Below are positions 10,700 to 21,625 of a DNA stretch of 56,301 nucleotides, piece after piece. Source of the DNA: an uncultured Bacilli bacterium (GTDB lineage: Bacteria > Bacillota_I > Bacilli_A > RF39 > UBA660). The stretch lies in contig CANRJW010000005.1 of the NCBI GenBank assembly GCA_947631035.1, positions 1-56,301 of the forward strand, read 5' to 3'. The notes under the pieces are model-generated. The model searched no databases and was not told where the DNA came from. It saw only the letters and a program-made list of their open reading frames with translations. Made by a program: the position numbers and the translations under genes. Numbering within the stretch: position 1 is the first letter of the stretch; each line of letters begins with the position of its first letter.

Positions 10700-10878
10700 A
10701 AAAAACCCAAAGGATAGTCTGTTTGGATAAAAAGCCCGCTCACGCGAGGTGGGCATCACATGATATGCTTTAGGATCCTAGCATCACTTAATGGGCTAGT
10801 CTTCTACACCACACTCAATTAGATTCCCAATAATATCCAATAGTCGGTTTTTATGTAAAACAAACTATTCCCTCAGGT
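10700..10878 (-). ncRNA. ssrS: 6S RNA
   Basis: A minus-strand transcript of about 180 bases that would bind and inhibit the housekeeping RNA polymerase holoenzyme. The 5' segment CCUGAGGGAAUAGUUUG pairs with 3' CAAAC-AG-ACUAUCCUUUGGG, giving the long closing stem, which is followed by TTTTTT. The middle holds an unpaired region and an inner hairpin GCCCACCUC-GCGUG-AGCGGGC. A consensus promoter precedes it. The location directly upstream of tcdA matches B. subtilis bsrA (between aspS and yrvM). The identity comes from structure and synteny, not a covariance search. Confidence 0.85.
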
Positions 10879-10884
10879 ACTTTC

Positions 10885-13753: not shown

Positions 13754-13783
13754 AAAAAAACAAGTTTTACTGACTCAACTTGT
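13754..13783 (-). terminator. Terminator of the hisS-gatB operon
   Basis: ACAAGTT pairs with AACTTGT across the gatB stop codon, followed by a T-run on the minus strand (A-run at 13754-13760). Confidence 0.75.
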
Positions 13784-15197
13784 CTTTTAAAATTTCTTTG
13801 GTAACGACTGGATTGGCTTTTCCACGTGTGTTTTTCATAACTTGTCCCACAAAGTAATCAAATAAATTATCTTTTCCTTTTTTGTATTCTTCGACTTGAG
13901 AAGCATTTTCTTCTAAGATTTGGCTAATAATTTTGTTTAATTCTTCTTTATCGGAGATTTGAGCCATATCGCTACTAATAAAAGTTTTTGGTTCTTTCTT
14001 TTCTTCTAACGCTTTATAAAAAATTTCTTTGGCTTGTTTAGAAGAAATAGTTCCTTTTTGGATTTCGTCGGTGATTTGTTTTAATCGTGTTGGTGTTATA
14101 TAAAAGTCTTGTAAATTTTCTTCGGTACGATTGATTTCACCTAGGATTTGAGTGGTTAGCCAGTTACTAGCTGTTTTTGCTTCAATTCCTAAAGATAGAC
14201 ATTCTTCAAAGTAATCGGCATATTCTTTTTCTTTTACGATAACACTAGCATCATACTCACTTAAACCAAGTTCACTCTTATATTTTTCTTTTCTTTCTAA
14301 AGCAAGTAGTGGAATTTCCTTTTTGATTTCTTCTAGCCATTCCTTTGTAATTTTAAATTTAGGTAGATTTGGTTCCACAAAGTATTTATAGTCAATCGCA
14401 TCGACTTTAGAGCGCATACGAATGGTTGTCCCAGATTCCTCATCAAAACGTCTTGTTTCTTGTTCTACTTCTTCATATCTTCCGGCATCTTTTAACTCAC
14501 TTTGACGTTTAATTTCGTAATTAATCGCATCAAAGACGTTTCCGAATGAATTGATGTTTTTAACCTCAACTCTTGTTCCAAATTCCGTGGCACCTTCATC
14601 CATAATAGAGACATTGACATCACACCTAATTTGCCCTTTTTTTGTATCGGCTTCGGATACGCCACAATACTTATAGCAACTGCGCATATGTTCAAGGAAT
14701 GCTACAGCTTCTTCGGCACTAGATAGACATGGTTCTGTGACAAGTTCAAGAAGAGGTACTCCGGCACGATTGTAATCAATACATGAGGTAGCATAGTAAT
14801 GGTCTAGGCTTGCCGCATCTTCTTCTAGATGGATATCATGAATCTTAACCGTTTTCTTAACTCCATTTACTTCAATATCAATAGAACCATCGACTCCAAC
14901 AGGAGATTCCATTTGGGTAATTTGATATCCTTTTGGTAAATCCGGATAGTAATAGTTTTTACGGTCAAAATACATATATTCTGGTTGCTTACAATTTAAA
15001 ACCATACTCATCATTAAAGCATCATGGACACATTTTTTATTGACAACCGGAAGTGTTCCAGGGAAAGCCATATCAACGGGGGCAATATTGTCATTAGGTA
15101 TTTCGTTATAAGAATTTCTAGCACTTGAAAATACTTTGGAATTACTTTTAAGTTCGCAGTGCATTTCAAGGCCAATAACCGCTTTATATTTTCCCAT
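13767..15197 (-). CDS. gatB: Asp-tRNA(Asn)/Glu-tRNA(Gln) amidotransferase subunit B
   Basis: GatB binds the misacylated tRNA and phosphorylates the Asp or Glu carboxylate, using ammonia tunnelled from GatA. The 476 residues match the family. Signatures are IGLEMHCELKS, CNKCQ-region equivalents FSSARNSY, YYPDLPKGYQITQ, DYNRAGVPLLELVTEP, CDVNVSI and EVKNINSF, with the YqeY-like tail at the C-terminus. Its start overlaps the gatA stop by one base. It is the last gene of the hisS operon. Confidence 0.96.
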   Translation of the reverse strand: MGKYKAVIGLEMHCELKSNSKVFSSARNSYNEIPNDNIAPVDMAFPGTLPVVNKKCVHDALMMSMVLNCKQPEYMYFDRKNYYYPDLPKGYQITQMESPVGVDGSIDIEVNGVKKTVKIHDIHLEEDAASLDHYYATSCIDYNRAGVPLLELVTEPCLSSAEEAVAFLEHMRSCYKYCGVSEADTKKGQIRCDVNVSIMDEGATEFGTRVEVKNINSFGNVFDAINYEIKRQSELKDAGRYEEVEQETRRFDEESGTTIRMRSKVDAIDYKYFVEPNLPKFKITKEWLEEIKKEIPLLALERKEKYKSELGLSEYDASVIVKEKEYADYFEECLSLGIEAKTASNWLTTQILGEINRTEENLQDFYITPTRLKQITDEIQKGTISSKQAKEIFYKALEEKKEPKTFISSDMAQISDKEELNKIISQILEENASQVEEYKKGKDNLFDYFVGQVMKNTRGKANPVVTKEILKDKLSQ

Positions 15198-16645
15198 TAT
15201 TTTACCTCCTTGGCAATTTGATTTTTATAATCCATTGCACTTTCTAGAGCATACGCAATATTTAAAACTTTACTATCGTTATAGCAGTTTCCAGTGATAT
15301 TTAATGCAACTGGTAAGTCACTTACAAAGCCATCGGGAATAGTAATCGAAGGAAATCCTCCAAAGTTTCCGATTTGTAAGTGTTCTTCTAATACGGCGGT
15401 GTCTTTCGTAAGCATATCTTTGTCGCTATCTAAGTGTTTTGCAGGTCCACTACTAACCGGTAAAATCACAGCATCATACGTTTCATATAACTTTTTCCAA
15501 GCATCGACAAGCATTCTTCTAACCCTTCCCGCATTCTTAAAGTAACGTTCTTGATTTTCTTTTTGTAAGATATAAGAACCAATTACAAAACGACGTTTAA
15601 TTAAGGGAGAAAAACCTTTGGTACGATGGTCCATCATCATTTCTTCATAGTTTTTTCCGTTTCCGCGAGGTCCAAAAATAATTCCCGTTAAATTGGACAT
15701 ATTGCTTGTTGCTTCAGCACAAGAAATCGCAACATAGACACTTGGTAAGGCATTTAAAAGTTTTTCGTCAATAGATACTTCATCGACTGTCATACCTAGA
15801 CTTTTACAAAGTTCTATTTTCTCCATAAAGTTTTTTAAGTGACTCTTTAATTCTTCACTCGCATTCGGATAGTTTTTACTATCACACAATTCTTTGATGT
15901 AACATAACTTCATTCCTTTGACATTCCCATCGATACTTTCATATAAATGAATGTCTCTAGAATCCCATGAAGTCATATCATGTTCATCGATTCCTTTCAT
16001 GGCGTCGACGACGATGGCAGCATCTTTAACACTACGACATAACACACCGCAATGGTCAAGACTGGATGCAAAAGGAAATAATCCATATCTTGAAATCATA
16101 CCATAAGTTGGTTTATACCCAACAATTCCACAATAAGCCGCCGGTTTTCTTATAGAATCCCCCGTATCGCTACCTAAAGCATAAGGATAAACGCCTGCCG
16201 CAACAGCACAAGCACTTCCGGCACTGGATCCGGCTGTCATACGAGTAGAATCCCAAGGATTTTTAACAATTCCGGTATGACAGGTAGTTCCTGTTCCACC
16301 CATGCCAAATTCGTCCATCGCTGTTTTATTGACGGGTATTGCTCCAGCATCTAACAATTTTTGAACAGCAGTCGCATTAAAAAAGGGAACATAATCTTTT
16401 AACGTATTAGAAGAACCGGTAGATAAAATATCCTTGGTTGAATAGTTATCTTTGATACCAAATGGAATTCCAGATAATAAGTTATCGGTAACTTCGGTTT
16501 CTTTTGCATCATCCAAAATCGTGACAAAAGCATTGTATTTTTCTTCAACTTCATGTGATTTTTTTAGGGCTTCTTCCACTAATTCTTTACTCGTTATTTT
16601 TTTATTAATTAAAAGTTCATGTAATTCTTCAATTGTTTTGTCCAT
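15197..16645 (-). CDS. gatA: Asp-tRNA(Asn)/Glu-tRNA(Gln) amidotransferase subunit A
   Basis: The amidase subunit that releases ammonia from glutamine for GatB. The 482-residue amidase-signature protein shows the Ser-cisSer-Lys catalytic set: Lys in PFGIKDNYSTKD, and MTAGSSAGSACAVAAG with GSDTGDSIRKPA. It overlaps gatC and gatB by one base each, typical of translational coupling within gatCAB. Confidence 0.96.
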   Translation of the reverse strand: MDKTIEELHELLINKKITSKELVEEALKKSHEVEEKYNAFVTILDDAKETEVTDNLLSGIPFGIKDNYSTKDILSTGSSNTLKDYVPFFNATAVQKLLDAGAIPVNKTAMDEFGMGGTGTTCHTGIVKNPWDSTRMTAGSSAGSACAVAAGVYPYALGSDTGDSIRKPAAYCGIVGYKPTYGMISRYGLFPFASSLDHCGVLCRSVKDAAIVVDAMKGIDEHDMTSWDSRDIHLYESIDGNVKGMKLCYIKELCDSKNYPNASEELKSHLKNFMEKIELCKSLGMTVDEVSIDEKLLNALPSVYVAISCAEATSNMSNLTGIIFGPRGNGKNYEEMMMDHRTKGFSPLIKRRFVIGSYILQKENQERYFKNAGRVRRMLVDAWKKLYETYDAVILPVSSGPAKHLDSDKDMLTKDTAVLEEHLQIGNFGGFPSITIPDGFVSDLPVALNITGNCYNDSKVLNIAYALESAMDYKNQIAKEVK

Positions 16646-16950
16646 TAATTTTCCCCTCCTACCACTTTTGGTACTTCAACTTCTCTTCCCTCTTTGCTAT
16701 CACAATTTCTTAAAGCATCTTCAATAGGAATGGAAGGCGTTGCAACATCTTCTCTTAAGGTAAAAGAAAAATCATCTAAAGCATGTGTCATCGGCGTAAC
16801 TTCTTTAATATTGGGAAAATCCTCTACTTTTCTTAAATTCTCATCGATAATGGCAAACTCATCTAAAACCATTTGATTTTCTTCTTCAGATAAACCAATT
16901 AAGAGTTTCTTTGCTAAATCATCGACAAGTTCTTTGGTAAATTTAGGCAT
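16645..16950 (-). CDS. gatC: Asp-tRNA(Asn)/Glu-tRNA(Gln) amidotransferase subunit C
   Basis: The small GatC subunit wraps around GatA and stabilises the GatCAB complex. The 101 residues match the family: an N-terminal LAKKLLIGLSEEE helix, LRKVEDFPNIKEVTPMTHA, and LREDVATPSI. Its start overlaps the end of aspS by eight bases. Confidence 0.95.
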   Translation of the reverse strand: MPKFTKELVDDLAKKLLIGLSEEENQMVLDEFAIIDENLRKVEDFPNIKEVTPMTHALDDFSFTLREDVATPSIPIEDALRNCDSKEGREVEVPKVVGGEN

Positions 16951-18709
16951 CGTTTTCCTCCTCTTCTACTAAAGAAATTCCTAGTTCTTCTAATTGTTCA
17001 GCACTTACTCTGTTTGGTGCTTCACTCATGATATCACTAGCACTTTGGGTTTTCGGAAAAGCAATGACATCTTTAATATTTTCTGTACCACTTAAAAGCA
17101 TGGTAAATCTTTCAAGTCCAATCGCAAGTCCAGCATGAGGAGGAGCTCCAAACTTAAAGGCATCAATGAAGAAACCAAATTTATTTTTAATATCTTCTTC
17201 GGTGAGTTCTAGAGCATCAAAAACGACCTTTTGAATTCTTGGATCATGAATACGAACAGAACCTCCACCCAATTCATAGCCATTTAAAACGATATCGTAG
17301 GCAATGGATAAAACATTTTCTTTATCGGTTTTAAGCATTTCTAAATCACTTGGCATGGTGAAAGGATGATGCATGGCTTTGTATCTTCCTTCAGTTTCAG
17401 AATACTCAAACATTGGAAAATCAACAACCCATAAGAAGTTCATTTTTTCTTTATCAATTAAATTTAAGTCGTTCGCAATTTTTAAACGTAGAGCTCCTAA
17501 AGCATCGTATACAACCTTTTTCTTATCCGCAACAATTAAGATTAAGTCGTTATTTTCGACATTGTAGGTCTTACGAATCTCTTCTAGTTTTTCTTCTTCT
17601 AAGTTTTTGGCAATAACACCATTAAATTTATCTTCGTCGTATTTTAACCAAGCAAGTCCTTTGGCCCCATAAATTTTTACAAAATCCGTTAGGTGTTCCA
17701 CATCGCTTCGTGAATACTTATCGCCATTATTTTTGACAATCAAGCATTTAACGATACCACCATTTTCAATAACATTACGAAATACATTCATATTGGTATC
17801 TTTTAAAATTTCCGTTAAGTCTAAAAGTTCCATCGCAAATCTCGTATCTGGTTTATCAGAACCAAATCGGTCCATGGCTTCTTTATAAGGCATTTTAGGA
17901 AAATCGGGTAAATCGATTCCCTTAACCTTTTTAACGACATGTTTTATCATACCTTCAACTAAAGACATGATATCTTCTTGGTTTGCAAAACTCATTTCCA
18001 AGTCAATTTGCGTAAATTCTGGTTGGCGATCCGCTCTTAAGTCTTCATCACGAAAACATCTAGCAATTTGATAATACCTTTCAAATCCTCCCACCATTAA
18101 AAGTTGTTTAAATATTTGCGGACTTTGTGGTAAAGCGTAGAAAGAACCCTTATTGACACGTGAAGGTACAATATAATCTCTTGCTCCTTCTGGTGTTGAT
18201 TTACATAGAATTGGCGTTTCAATTTCTAAAAATTCATGCTCATTTAAGTATTCTCTTGCCGCAGAAGTAATTAAATGACGGGTTTTAATAGTTCTTTGTA
18301 ACTTTTCTCTTCGAAGATCTAGATAACGATATTTAAGACCAATATTTTCACCAATTTCCTTATCTTCATATACATTAAAGGGAAGTGGTTCTGCTTCACT
18401 TAGGATTTCTAAATTTTCAACCATTAACTCAACTTCACCAGTTGGAATTTTTGGATTAATCATATCGTCTGTTCGAGCAATTAACTTACCACTTACCTTA
18501 ATACAATATTCATTTTTAAGACTTTCGGCTAGAGCAAAATCATCTTTTAAGAAGCGACGATTAAAAACAACTTGTAAAAAACCAGAACGGTCTCTTAAAT
18601 CGACGAAGATAACTCCACCCATATCACGTCTTTTATTGACCCAACCATAAACGGTATATTCTTTATCAATATCTTTTTTTCTAAATTCTCCATTATTATA
18701 TAGTTTCAT
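16943..18709 (-). CDS. aspS: Aspartyl-tRNA synthetase
   Basis: A class II synthetase of bacterial type with 588 residues: N-terminal OB-fold anticodon domain (about 1-110), catalytic domain, and the bacterial GAD insert (about 285-410). Motif 2 is FRDEDLRADRQPEFTQ and motif 3 is GLAIGLERFTMLL. With AsnRS in the same operon the cell does not need indirect Asn-tRNA synthesis, so whether this AspRS is discriminating cannot be read by eye. It lies 21 bases after asnS. Confidence 0.96.
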   Translation of the reverse strand: MKLYNNGEFRKKDIDKEYTVYGWVNKRRDMGGVIFVDLRDRSGFLQVVFNRRFLKDDFALAESLKNEYCIKVSGKLIARTDDMINPKIPTGEVELMVENLEILSEAEPLPFNVYEDKEIGENIGLKYRYLDLRREKLQRTIKTRHLITSAAREYLNEHEFLEIETPILCKSTPEGARDYIVPSRVNKGSFYALPQSPQIFKQLLMVGGFERYYQIARCFRDEDLRADRQPEFTQIDLEMSFANQEDIMSLVEGMIKHVVKKVKGIDLPDFPKMPYKEAMDRFGSDKPDTRFAMELLDLTEILKDTNMNVFRNVIENGGIVKCLIVKNNGDKYSRSDVEHLTDFVKIYGAKGLAWLKYDEDKFNGVIAKNLEEEKLEEIRKTYNVENNDLILIVADKKKVVYDALGALRLKIANDLNLIDKEKMNFLWVVDFPMFEYSETEGRYKAMHHPFTMPSDLEMLKTDKENVLSIAYDIVLNGYELGGGSVRIHDPRIQKVVFDALELTEEDIKNKFGFFIDAFKFGAPPHAGLAIGLERFTMLLSGTENIKDVIAFPKTQSASDIMSEAPNRVSAEQLEELGISLVEEEENDA

Positions 18710-18730: not shown

Positions 18731-20095
18731 CTAGTATTCGCAGTTTCCTGGTGTTCTTGGATAAGGAATGACATCACGAATATTTTCAACCCCTGTTAGA
18801 TAGATTAATAATCGCTCAAATCCCATTCCAAAACCAGAATGAACACAAGTACCATATTTTCTTAAATTTAAGTACCAATCTAAACTCTTGGTATCCATTT
18901 TTAATTCATTCATACGAGAAAGTAGTTTTTCGTAATCTTCTTCTCTTTGACTACCCCCCATTAATTCTCCTGCTCCTGGGACTTCTAAATCAACAGCCGC
19001 AACGGTTTTACCATCACTATTTTGTTTCATGTAGAAGGCTTTAATTTCCTTTGGCCAGTTCTTAATAAAGACGGGACCATTAAAGTATTCCGTGATGTAT
19101 TTTTCATGTTCTTTTGCTATATCTCCACCATAAGTAGGGGCAAAATCCCATTTGACATCCGCTTTTTGGAGTAATTCTATGACATCTTTATAATCAATTC
19201 GAGTAAATTTAGCTGTTACAAGTTTATTTAGTTTTTCAAGTAAACCTTCCTCAACAAATTGATTAAAGAATTCCATTTCTTCTTTACAGTGTTCTAAACA
19301 GTAAGAAACGACATATTTAAGCATATCTTCCATAACGTCCATATCGCCCTCCAAATCACAGAAACACATTTCAGGTTCAATCATCCAAAATTCTGCCGCA
19401 TGAGTTTTGGTATTGGAGTTTTCTGCACGGAAAGTTGGACCAAACGTATAAGTCTTTTTATAAGCCGTAGCAAATGTTTCCGCTTCTAATTGGCCACTTA
19501 CCGTTAAATTGGTCATTTTACCAAAGAAATCTTTTGAGTAGTCGGGTTCATTTACAATTTTATCAATAGGAAGAGTGGTCACTTGAAACATTTCTCCAGC
19601 CCCTTCACAATCACTTGCGGTAATGAGTGGCGCATGAAAATAGACAAATCCCCTTTCTTGAAAATAGTTATGAATAGCATAAGCAGCAACACTTCTAACA
19701 CGAAAAACGGCTTGAAAAAGATTGGTACGAGGTCGAAGATAAGCTACTTCTCTTAAAAATTCTCTCGTATGTCTTTTAGGTTGAATCGGATAATCTTCTG
19801 GACAAACTCCAAGAATAGTTACTTCTTCTGCTTTTACTTCATACTCTTGTTTTCCACTAGAAGAAACAAGCGTTCCTTTAACATGAATAGCACTTCCAAC
19901 TAAGATTTTACTAACCTCTTCAAAATTAGTTAAAGATGTATCATAAACGATTTGTAGATGTTCGAAACAAGTCCCATCACTAAAATCGATAAAACCAAAA
20001 TCCTTTTGACGACGATGGTTACGAATCCAACCATCCAATACCACTTCTTTATTTTCTAATTCTTTTGCTTTTACAAACAATTCTTTTAAGTCCAT
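18731..20095 (-). CDS. asnS: Asparaginyl-tRNA synthetase
   Basis: A class IIb synthetase, 454 residues, with an OB-fold anticodon domain (about 15-100) and a catalytic core. Motif 2 is TFGPTFRAENSNT and motif 3 is HSGFGMGFERLL. The AENSNT sequence and length match AsnRS rather than AspRS. It lies ten bases after hisS and 21 bases before aspS. Direct charging of tRNA(Asn) implies that GatCAB in this operon mainly serves Glu-tRNA(Gln), if no GlnRS exists elsewhere. Confidence 0.94.
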   Translation of the reverse strand: MDLKELFVKAKELENKEVVLDGWIRNHRRQKDFGFIDFSDGTCFEHLQIVYDTSLTNFEEVSKILVGSAIHVKGTLVSSSGKQEYEVKAEEVTILGVCPEDYPIQPKRHTREFLREVAYLRPRTNLFQAVFRVRSVAAYAIHNYFQERGFVYFHAPLITASDCEGAGEMFQVTTLPIDKIVNEPDYSKDFFGKMTNLTVSGQLEAETFATAYKKTYTFGPTFRAENSNTKTHAAEFWMIEPEMCFCDLEGDMDVMEDMLKYVVSYCLEHCKEEMEFFNQFVEEGLLEKLNKLVTAKFTRIDYKDVIELLQKADVKWDFAPTYGGDIAKEHEKYITEYFNGPVFIKNWPKEIKAFYMKQNSDGKTVAAVDLEVPGAGELMGGSQREEDYEKLLSRMNELKMDTKSLDWYLNLRKYGTCVHSGFGMGFERLLIYLTGVENIRDVIPYPRTPGNCEY

Positions 20096-20104
20096 AGTAT
20101 CCTC

Positions 20105-21358
20105 CTATCTTGATACAATATAGTCAATGATTTCATTTTCATCGACTTTCTCTTCTTCTTTAGTTAAATTATCTTTTACCGTAATTAAGCCTTTCTTTAA
20201 ATCTTCGCTATTTAAAAGAATCAAAAGTTGCGCGTTATTGCGGTCAGCTTCTTTAAACTGACTCTTTAAACTTCTTCCGGTCGTGTCATAATCAACACTT
20301 ACCCCACTTAAACGAAGGTCTTGCGCAAGCATCAAAGCTTTTATTTTTTCTTCTTCGTTTACATATAAGATATAGCAATCCAGTGGTCTTTTTTCTGTTT
20401 CTTCGAAAGCATCCATTGCAAGCATGACTCTTTCTAGTCCACATGCAAATCCAATACATGGAGTGGATGGTCCACCTAAAGTTTCTACTAAATTGTTGTA
20501 ACGTCCTCCAGCCGCAATCGTACTAGCTCCACCTAAAACTTCCGCATCACTTTCAATTTCAAATACTGTATAATCGTAGTAATCTAAACCACGAACTAAA
20601 TGGCTATCCACTTCATAGTCAACATCTAAAAATTCTAAGTATTCAAGAACTTTTTGAAAACGATTTTTAGATTCTTCACTTTGGTATTCTAAAATATTAG
20701 GAACATTTTTTAAAATCTCGGAATCACAATCAACCTTACAATCTAAGATACGTAAAGGATTTGTTTCAAATCTCTTTTTACAATCGTCGCACAAATCGTT
20801 TAAATGTGGTTTTAAATACTCTTTTAAAGCCGTTTTGTACTTTTCTCTATCTTCTTTAGCACCTAGGTTATTAATGCGTACATTTAAATCTTTAAATCCA
20901 AGTTCTAAAAACATGTGATAAGGCATCGAAATGACTTCGGCATCAATAGCTGGATCGTTACTTCCTAACACCTCTACTCCAAATTGCGTAAATTCTCTGT
21001 TTCGTCCATTTCCTGGTCTTTCATAGCGATACATTGTTCCATTATAGTAAAGTTTTCTAGGCATATTACTACCATACATTTTGTTTTCAATAAAACTTCT
21101 AACCACTCCTGCTGTTCCTTCAGGACGAAGCGTTAATTCTCTTTCACTTCTATCTTGAAAATCATACGTTTCCTTGGTGACAATATCGGTATCTTCTCCA
21201 ACCGTTCGATGGAATAACTCACGAGCTTCAAAGATAGGTGTACGAATATAATCGTAATTGTAAAATTCGCAAGTATATTCAATTAAACGATTAATCTTTT
21301 GTAATTTTAAGGCCTCCTTATCTAATACATCATAAGTTCCTTTAGGTTTTGTTATCAT
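20105..21358 (-). CDS. hisS: Histidyl-tRNA synthetase
   Basis: A class II synthetase of 417 residues. Signatures are KGTYDVL at the start, LRPEGTAGVVR, motif 2 MYRYERPGNGRNREFTQFGVE, LVRGLDYYDYTVFE (histidine binding) and the CIGFACGLERVM motif 3, with a C-terminal anticodon domain. AAGGAGGA precedes the ATG. It is the first gene of the operon and follows a T-box leader. hisS followed by aspS is standard in Bacilli; the asnS and gatCAB additions are less usual. Confidence 0.96.
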   Translation of the reverse strand: MITKPKGTYDVLDKEALKLQKINRLIEYTCEFYNYDYIRTPIFEARELFHRTVGEDTDIVTKETYDFQDRSERELTLRPEGTAGVVRSFIENKMYGSNMPRKLYYNGTMYRYERPGNGRNREFTQFGVEVLGSNDPAIDAEVISMPYHMFLELGFKDLNVRINNLGAKEDREKYKTALKEYLKPHLNDLCDDCKKRFETNPLRILDCKVDCDSEILKNVPNILEYQSEESKNRFQKVLEYLEFLDVDYEVDSHLVRGLDYYDYTVFEIESDAEVLGGASTIAAGGRYNNLVETLGGPSTPCIGFACGLERVMLAMDAFEETEKRPLDCYILYVNEEEKIKALMLAQDLRLSGVSVDYDTTGRSLKSQFKEADRNNAQLLILLNSEDLKKGLITVKDNLTKEEEKVDENEIIDYIVSR

Positions 21359-21379
21359 ATTTTCTCCTCCTTAACATAA

Positions 21380-21592
21380 AAAAACCGAGTATCGTAAGGA
21401 CGAGATTTCCCGCGGTGCCACCTTACTTTACTAGGTACTCTTCATTGATTTATCACGAAATTTATCGCGTTCTACGTCGTATGAAAGGTGTCTTTTCTAA
21501 AAAGTTTCTTTAGGCTTTTTTCAGCAATCAAGCCCTCTCTTCTAAAAGAAATTCTTTTTATACTTTTTCTTTCCCGTAGAAATATAATATAG
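21380..21592 (-). promoter_or_regulatory. T-box leader with overlapping Asp/His specifier
   Basis: A tRNA-sensing riboswitch for hisS-asnS-aspS-gatCAB. The T-box AAGGTGGCACCGCG lies at 21424-21411. The terminator pairs GTAAGG with CCTTAC and GAGTA with TACTC, ending in GG plus seven T (to 21380). Stem I includes AGAGAGGGC (21540-21532), an apical loop and the lower helix GGAAAG/CTTTC. Just 5' of that 3' helix strand is GACAC (21492-21488): GAC (Asp) and CAC (His) overlap by one base, in frames two apart. Uncharged tRNA pairing with the specifier and the T-box would favour the antiterminator. Which register is used is not certain by eye. Confidence 0.9.
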
Positions 21593-21596
21593 TCTT

Positions 21597-21625
21597 ATTT
21601 TAGTACGAAATAAGTTGGAAGTCAA
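21597..21625 (-). promoter_or_regulatory. Promoter of the hisS operon
   Basis: Minus-strand TTGACT (21625-21620), 17 bases, TAAAAT (21602-21597), just upstream of the T-box leader. Confidence 0.7.

Follow-up and report, generated by a model that had tools for sequence, protein, structure and literature searches.

A T-box before a hisS-asnS-aspS-gatCAB operon of uncultured Bacilli: predicted reading of tRNA-Asp and a terminator arm that pairs with Stem III

The window, a stretch of 56,301 nucleotides from an uncultured Bacilli bacterium, carries an operon for three aminoacyl-tRNA synthetases and an amidotransferase behind a leader that displays the bases GACAC at the place of a T-box specifier. 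The locus raises the question of which uncharged tRNA admits RNA polymerase into the operon, tRNA-Asp through GAC, tRNA-His through the CAC that overlaps it two bases on, or both, and of how binding of that tRNA would be converted into a transcriptional decision.

Operon and leader architecture

The initial annotation had placed a T-box upstream of the operon, and the minus-strand leader at 21393-21579 indeed matches RF00230 over the full length of the model (90.0 bits, E 1.8e-20, Rfam E-value scan); its absence from the gathering-threshold scan is explained by a score 3 bits below the curated cut-off of 93. The interval given for the element, 21380-21625, is correct and spans promoter to terminator. 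The promoter, read from the sequence at 21597-21625 on the same strand, consists of a -35 box TTGACT (21620-21625), a 17-nt spacer and a -10 box TAAAAT (21597-21602), and the same arrangement is visible upstream of the relatives' leaders. The Rfam alignment and the coordinates place Stem I at 21470-21581, with a base helix UUCUACG (21575-21581) : CGUAGAA (21470-21476), a lower helix GAAAG (21569-21573) : CUUUC (21483-21487) and an S-turn AGUA at 21561-21564. The Stem III region AAGAG-UACCUAGUA-AA (21427-21442) comprises purine flanks, a Stem III of 3 bp and its loop. The antiterminator (21394-21426), located by the alignment and by folding, is made of helix A1 (GUAAGG:CCUUAC), the bulge UGGCACC (21414-21420) and helix A2 (GCGGG:CUCGU), and the terminator 3' arm GAUACUCGGU and the U-run occupy 21378-21393. 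The RF00230 match, a specifier that fits the operon and a bulge complementary to the discriminator base together confirm the leader as a T-box, predicted to act as a riboswitch.

A Shine-Dalgarno-like AAGGAGGAGA (21363-21372) precedes the first gene, and the annotated hisS-asnS-aspS-gatCAB operon was likewise borne out by NCBIfam matches on the minus strand. The models assign hisS, histidine--tRNA ligase (20105-21358; TIGR00442, 454.6 bits), asnS, asparagine--tRNA ligase (18731-20095; TIGR00457, 571.7 bits), aspS, aspartate--tRNA ligase of the bacterial type (16943-18709; TIGR00459, 789 bits) and gatB (13767-15197; TIGR00133, 540.4 bits), all above their cut-offs. The best matches of gatA (15197-16645; TIGR00132, 436.9 bits) and gatC (16645-16950; TIGR00135, 38.5 bits) stay below the cut-offs of 481.1 and 47.1 bits, and gatC is also assigned by its position in the operon. 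The six genes lie on one strand, no more than 21 nt apart, and aspS, gatC, gatA and gatB overlap. Since no model for GlnRS exceeds its cut-off in the genome, GatCAB probably produces Gln-tRNA. Many relatives (L057-L081) carry operons with a divergent aspS (30-42% identity) and another gene order, such as hisS-aspS-asnS-gatCAB. Elsewhere in the window, a full-length 6S RNA (RF00013, 48.2 bits; 10700-10882, minus strand) adjoins a HerA/FtsK-like ATPase gene.

Specifier and tRNA identity

The specifier loop of the RNA reads GAAAA-GAC-A-C-CUUUC, and GACAC at 21488-21492 adjoins the lower Stem I helix, as had been annotated. When the specifier was placed with the T-box model through the Rfam alignment, GAC (21490-21492) took up the specifier columns with the conserved A, at 21489, directly behind it, and the overlapping CAC (21488-21490), proposed as a His specifier, was not placed in these columns. 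The placement of GAC is supported by three further T-boxes of this genome, those of tyrS, metG and pheS, which by eye show UAC, AUG and UUC at the corresponding position, and GAC fits the downstream genes, aspS being within the operon. Rfam has A-C-C as the consensus behind the specifier, so that GACAC is the default for a GAC specifier in a standard T-box and carries little weight as evidence for a second codon.

Conservation of the second codon was judged from 80 hisS loci taken from related genomes, in which the specifiers of 57 leaders were tabulated by hand reading with a position check (one leader, L094, lies outside the check and reads GACAU). The specifier is GAC or AAC in all 57. Among the 40 leaders of the same type, window included, 28 have GAC and 12 have AAC, and the base directly after it is A in 39. 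The base after GACA or AACA is A in 16, G in 16, C in seven and U in one, and the complete second codon CAC is present in 6 of the 40, short of the evolutionary retention by which a two-codon T-box would be recognised. Among hisS orthologues sharing 93-95% identity with that of the window, some are preceded by GACAA (L039, L040) and others by GACAC (L041, L042). In the hisS-aspS outgroup (16 leaders, one misparsed) the same base is U in 11 leaders, each time opposite A, and C in four, each time opposite G; hence, being U when its 5' partner is A and C when the partner is G, the base that completes CAC acts there as a helix base. These closing-pair counts come from the outgroup only, the parse of the enclosing group having contained misparses. 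No sign of selection for CAC was seen among the 40 leaders, the close hisS orthologues or the outgroup and, as judged from these comparisons, the CAC overlap is probably incidental.

The bulge provides a further view of tRNA identity. Every one of the 56 hisS leaders belonging to the two main types has C at the variable position of UGGN. The genome's own tRNA-Asp and tRNA-Asn terminate in GCCA (G73), whereas tRNA-His ends in CCCA with C73 facing G-1, so UGGC is complementary to the discriminator of tRNA-Asp and fits Asp and Asn, not His. The mismatch of UGGC with C73 supports the exclusion of tRNA-His and does not prove it, since TBDB does not apply discriminator matching for His (PMC7778990). 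Other tRNA genes of the genome include a second tRNA-Asp (GTC) on a short contig (L247:3362-3440, contig C74), with discriminator A in place of G, which would mismatch the UGGC bulge, and an array of many tRNA genes (L246, L241; G000:C2:19325-23695), some with poor acceptor stems, that contains a second tRNA-His with A73 and resembles a mobile-element or phage tRNA array.

On the hisS tree (57 rows) the GAC/AAC label needs six changes, at least five of them forced by well-supported branches. The T-box of this operon has therefore switched several times between reading of Asp and reading of Asn, each time by a single base, while the discriminator match stays valid across these changes. A leader that reads His was not found in the hisS set, although hisS is the first gene. 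A repeated one-base change of specifier in one operon amounts to a natural experiment on ligand change in T-boxes. Six of the 12 AAC leaders upstream of hisS (L047, L062, L067, L069, L091, L112) read GAAC, a Glu/Asn overlap as in the gatCAB T-box of C. acetobutylicum, and the G is unconserved in the other six.

Two dual readings of the specifier have to be weighed against reading of tRNA-Asp by GAC. The one put forward in the initial annotation, that tRNA-Asp and tRNA-His are both read on GACAC and the operon answers a shortage of either, draws on the contiguity of GACAC with the lower helix, on the C at 21488 being free of that helix because it faces a mismatched A, on the first place of hisS and on the precedent of a two-codon T-box with a shift of one base. 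Here the shift would be of two bases, and the CAC register is followed by C and not by the conserved A; with CAC unconserved in close relatives that have the same operon, GAC alone in the Rfam specifier columns and UGGC mismatched to C73, the claim did not withstand the comparison, and we regard it as quite improbable. Alternatively, GAC might also accept tRNA-Asn through a first-position mismatch, given that both tRNAs share G73 and the GCCA end, that both synthetases are encoded in the operon, that the relatives alternate between GAC and AAC and that a lysyl T-box has been reported to be partly induced by uncharged tRNA-Asn (PMC2916919). Yet the specifier position of the window has no AAC triplet, and the repeated exchange of GAC and AAC suggests that one tRNA is read at a time, which makes this reading highly improbable. 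Most likely, then, the switch senses uncharged tRNA-Asp alone, as predicted from specifier and bulge.

Precedents invoked in the initial annotation, both for overlapping His/Asp specifiers and for two-codon T-boxes, do exist, and the dual Asp/His proposal itself is not new. According to PMC5313534, hisS-aspS operons under T-box control carry GACAC, and Gutierrez-Preciado 2009 is cited there for the suggestion that they respond mainly to tRNA-Asp; the hisS-aspS T-box of MRSA has been termed a histidine T-box (PMC7927825). Such leaders resemble that of the window in having hisS first and GAC followed by A within GACAC, and differ in that the operon of the window adds asnS and gatCAB, its terminator is predicted to capture Stem III and the specifier of its relatives alternates with AAC. 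The two-codon Asn/Glu T-box of a transamidation operon of C. acetobutylicum (Saad 2013, as cited in PMC4052509) likewise precedes gatCAB-type genes and has overlapping codons in the specifier loop. There, the Asn/Glu overlap involves a shift of one base and was tested in vitro and in vivo, whereas the putative Asp/His reading of the window involves a shift of two bases and is unconserved.

Predicted pairing between terminator arm and Stem III

In canonical T-boxes the 3' strands of A1 and A2 turn into the 5' strand of the terminator (PMC7583486). Such a terminator is impossible in the window because GAUACUCGG is all that separates A1 from the U-run. In the predicted fold UACUCGGU pairs instead with ACCUAGUA, that is, with Stem III and its loop, and the antiterminator is folded inside the resulting hairpin, the Stem III region thus doubling as the terminator 5' arm. 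This enclosing fold reaches -19.9 kcal/mol, versus -8.9 kcal/mol for Stem III, A1 and A2 alone, and Stem III, with its 3 bp, is unstable by itself (+1.6 kcal/mol). The pairing in the window has one mismatch and is weaker than most, its energy being reached by 14% of shuffles. AAGAG-Stem III-AA fits the motif RRRxG...AA and is near-invariant in the 40 leaders; because Stem III is invariant it offers no covariation of its own, and its loop varies and tracks the terminator 3' arm. With respect to a canonical T-box (RF00230; PMC7583486), the window shares Stem I, specifier, Stem III with purine flanks, the A1/bulge/A2 element and the U-run; it differs in that the terminator takes Stem III and can leave A1 and A2 paired, where canonically the 3' strands of A1 and A2 enter the terminator.

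The enclosing fold was obtained for 40 of the 57 hisS leaders. In 16 others the terminator pairs with the 5' strand of the T-box (GGUGGCAC:GUGUUACC in L083), and a single leader has a canonical terminator. For other genes a strict rule was applied, which asks for six or more pairs joining the Stem III region to the segment that precedes the U-run, and for A1 to be retained; it removed three false enclosing assignments that an earlier terminator classifier had made in other orders. By this rule the enclosing design is present in three of the six T-boxes of this genome (metG, the hisS-operon leader and glyS) and in 17 of the 46 that come from six further genomes of the family, while other orders of the class yielded none among 44. 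The genes behind the non-hisS cases include metG-, glyS-, pheS-, tyrS- and asnS-like reading frames, recognised by eye from their N-termini; in one relative an asnS-like gene (L187) has a Stem III-capturing T-box of its own.

Maintenance of the pairing was assessed by arm-swap energies and not by per-column pair counts, because MAFFT left the terminator 3' arms out of register. Each 5' arm was combined with a 3' arm taken from a different leader, and the duplex energies were compared over 5000 permutations, whose counts are not probabilities since the leaders are related by descent. The cognate sum over nine distinct 5' arms of hisS leaders was -83.5 kcal/mol, where permutations averaged -53.3, and for 19 non-hisS leaders the cognate mean was -9.4 against -2.6 when swapped, with 0 of 5000 permutations as low in either set. 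The 51 control leaders from other orders gave no signal (cognate -3.15, swapped -3.04; 1623 of 5000 as low). The enclosing sets were picked by folding and are therefore biased towards paired arms, which affects comparison with shuffled arms more than that of cognate with swapped arms. Arm pairing is kept within this family and the controls lack it, and for the terminator arm and Stem III the leader comparison shows a pairing maintained at the level of sequence.

These results bear on whether the leader switches in the canonical manner, the enclosing helix being a by-product of AU-rich sequence and the real terminator, or sequestration of the Shine-Dalgarno, lying elsewhere. The arms are indeed AU-rich, so outer-pair counts do not discriminate them from shuffles (shuffled arms give at least six pairs in 68% of trials), and MFE folds, blind to tertiary contacts and co-transcriptional order, can mislead. 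Nevertheless, nothing after A1 in the window is able to pair with the 3' strands of A1 and A2, the arm ends at the U-run, and the swap energies indicate kept pairing before hisS and before other genes; canonical switching is thus unlikely. We place a probability of about 0.7 on the reading preferred here, a transcriptional T-box that would read tRNA-Asp through GAC, with CAC incidental and an OFF state that captures Stem III.

A proposed switch based on capture of Stem III

Under tRNA-Asp reading with capture of Stem III, the terminator 3' arm would pair in the OFF state with the loop and strands of Stem III and form a long hairpin around the antiterminator, in which A1 and A2 could remain paired. 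Once uncharged tRNA-Asp is bound at the UGGC bulge, Stem III would be held with its purine flanks against the duplex of tRNA and bulge, out of reach of the terminator, and RNA polymerase would be admitted into the hisS-asnS-aspS-gatCAB operon. When tRNA is lacking, the newly made 3' arm would invade the Stem III loop and complete the terminator; we infer termination at the U-run, with competition for Stem III as the switching step. Stem III with its RRRxG...AA flanks is required to sense the tRNA 3' end, and only lately has it been recognised as essential to the aminoacylation sensor (PMC7583486).

No description of a Stem III-capturing terminator was found in the open-access literature. It seems somewhat more probable than not that these leaders follow a distinct T-box logic, in which the antiterminator persists in both states and the tRNA holds the Stem III that the terminator would otherwise capture; leaders of this design precede many genes in one family of uncultured Bacilli and stand beside canonical T-boxes in the same genomes. 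A lineage whose terminator competes for Stem III would offer an independent test of Stem III as part of the sensor, and a Stem III-capturing leader could serve as a construct in which docking of Stem III is separable from capture of the tRNA by the bulge. The terminator design matters more than the dual Asp/His claim, which would add one more multi-tRNA T-box.

Other T-boxes of the genome depart from the standard form in their own ways. The core is altered in two of them (L003, G000:C69:3488-3682; L007, G000:C21:20186-20366), reading AGGAUGGUACCGC and not AGGGUGGUACCGCG. Another, before an HD-domain-like gene (L001, G000:C7:33862-34074, minus strand), has an OFF fold in which CUCGUCCUU pairs with the Shine-Dalgarno AAGGAGGAG, and on the basis of this fold it may act on translation rather than on termination.
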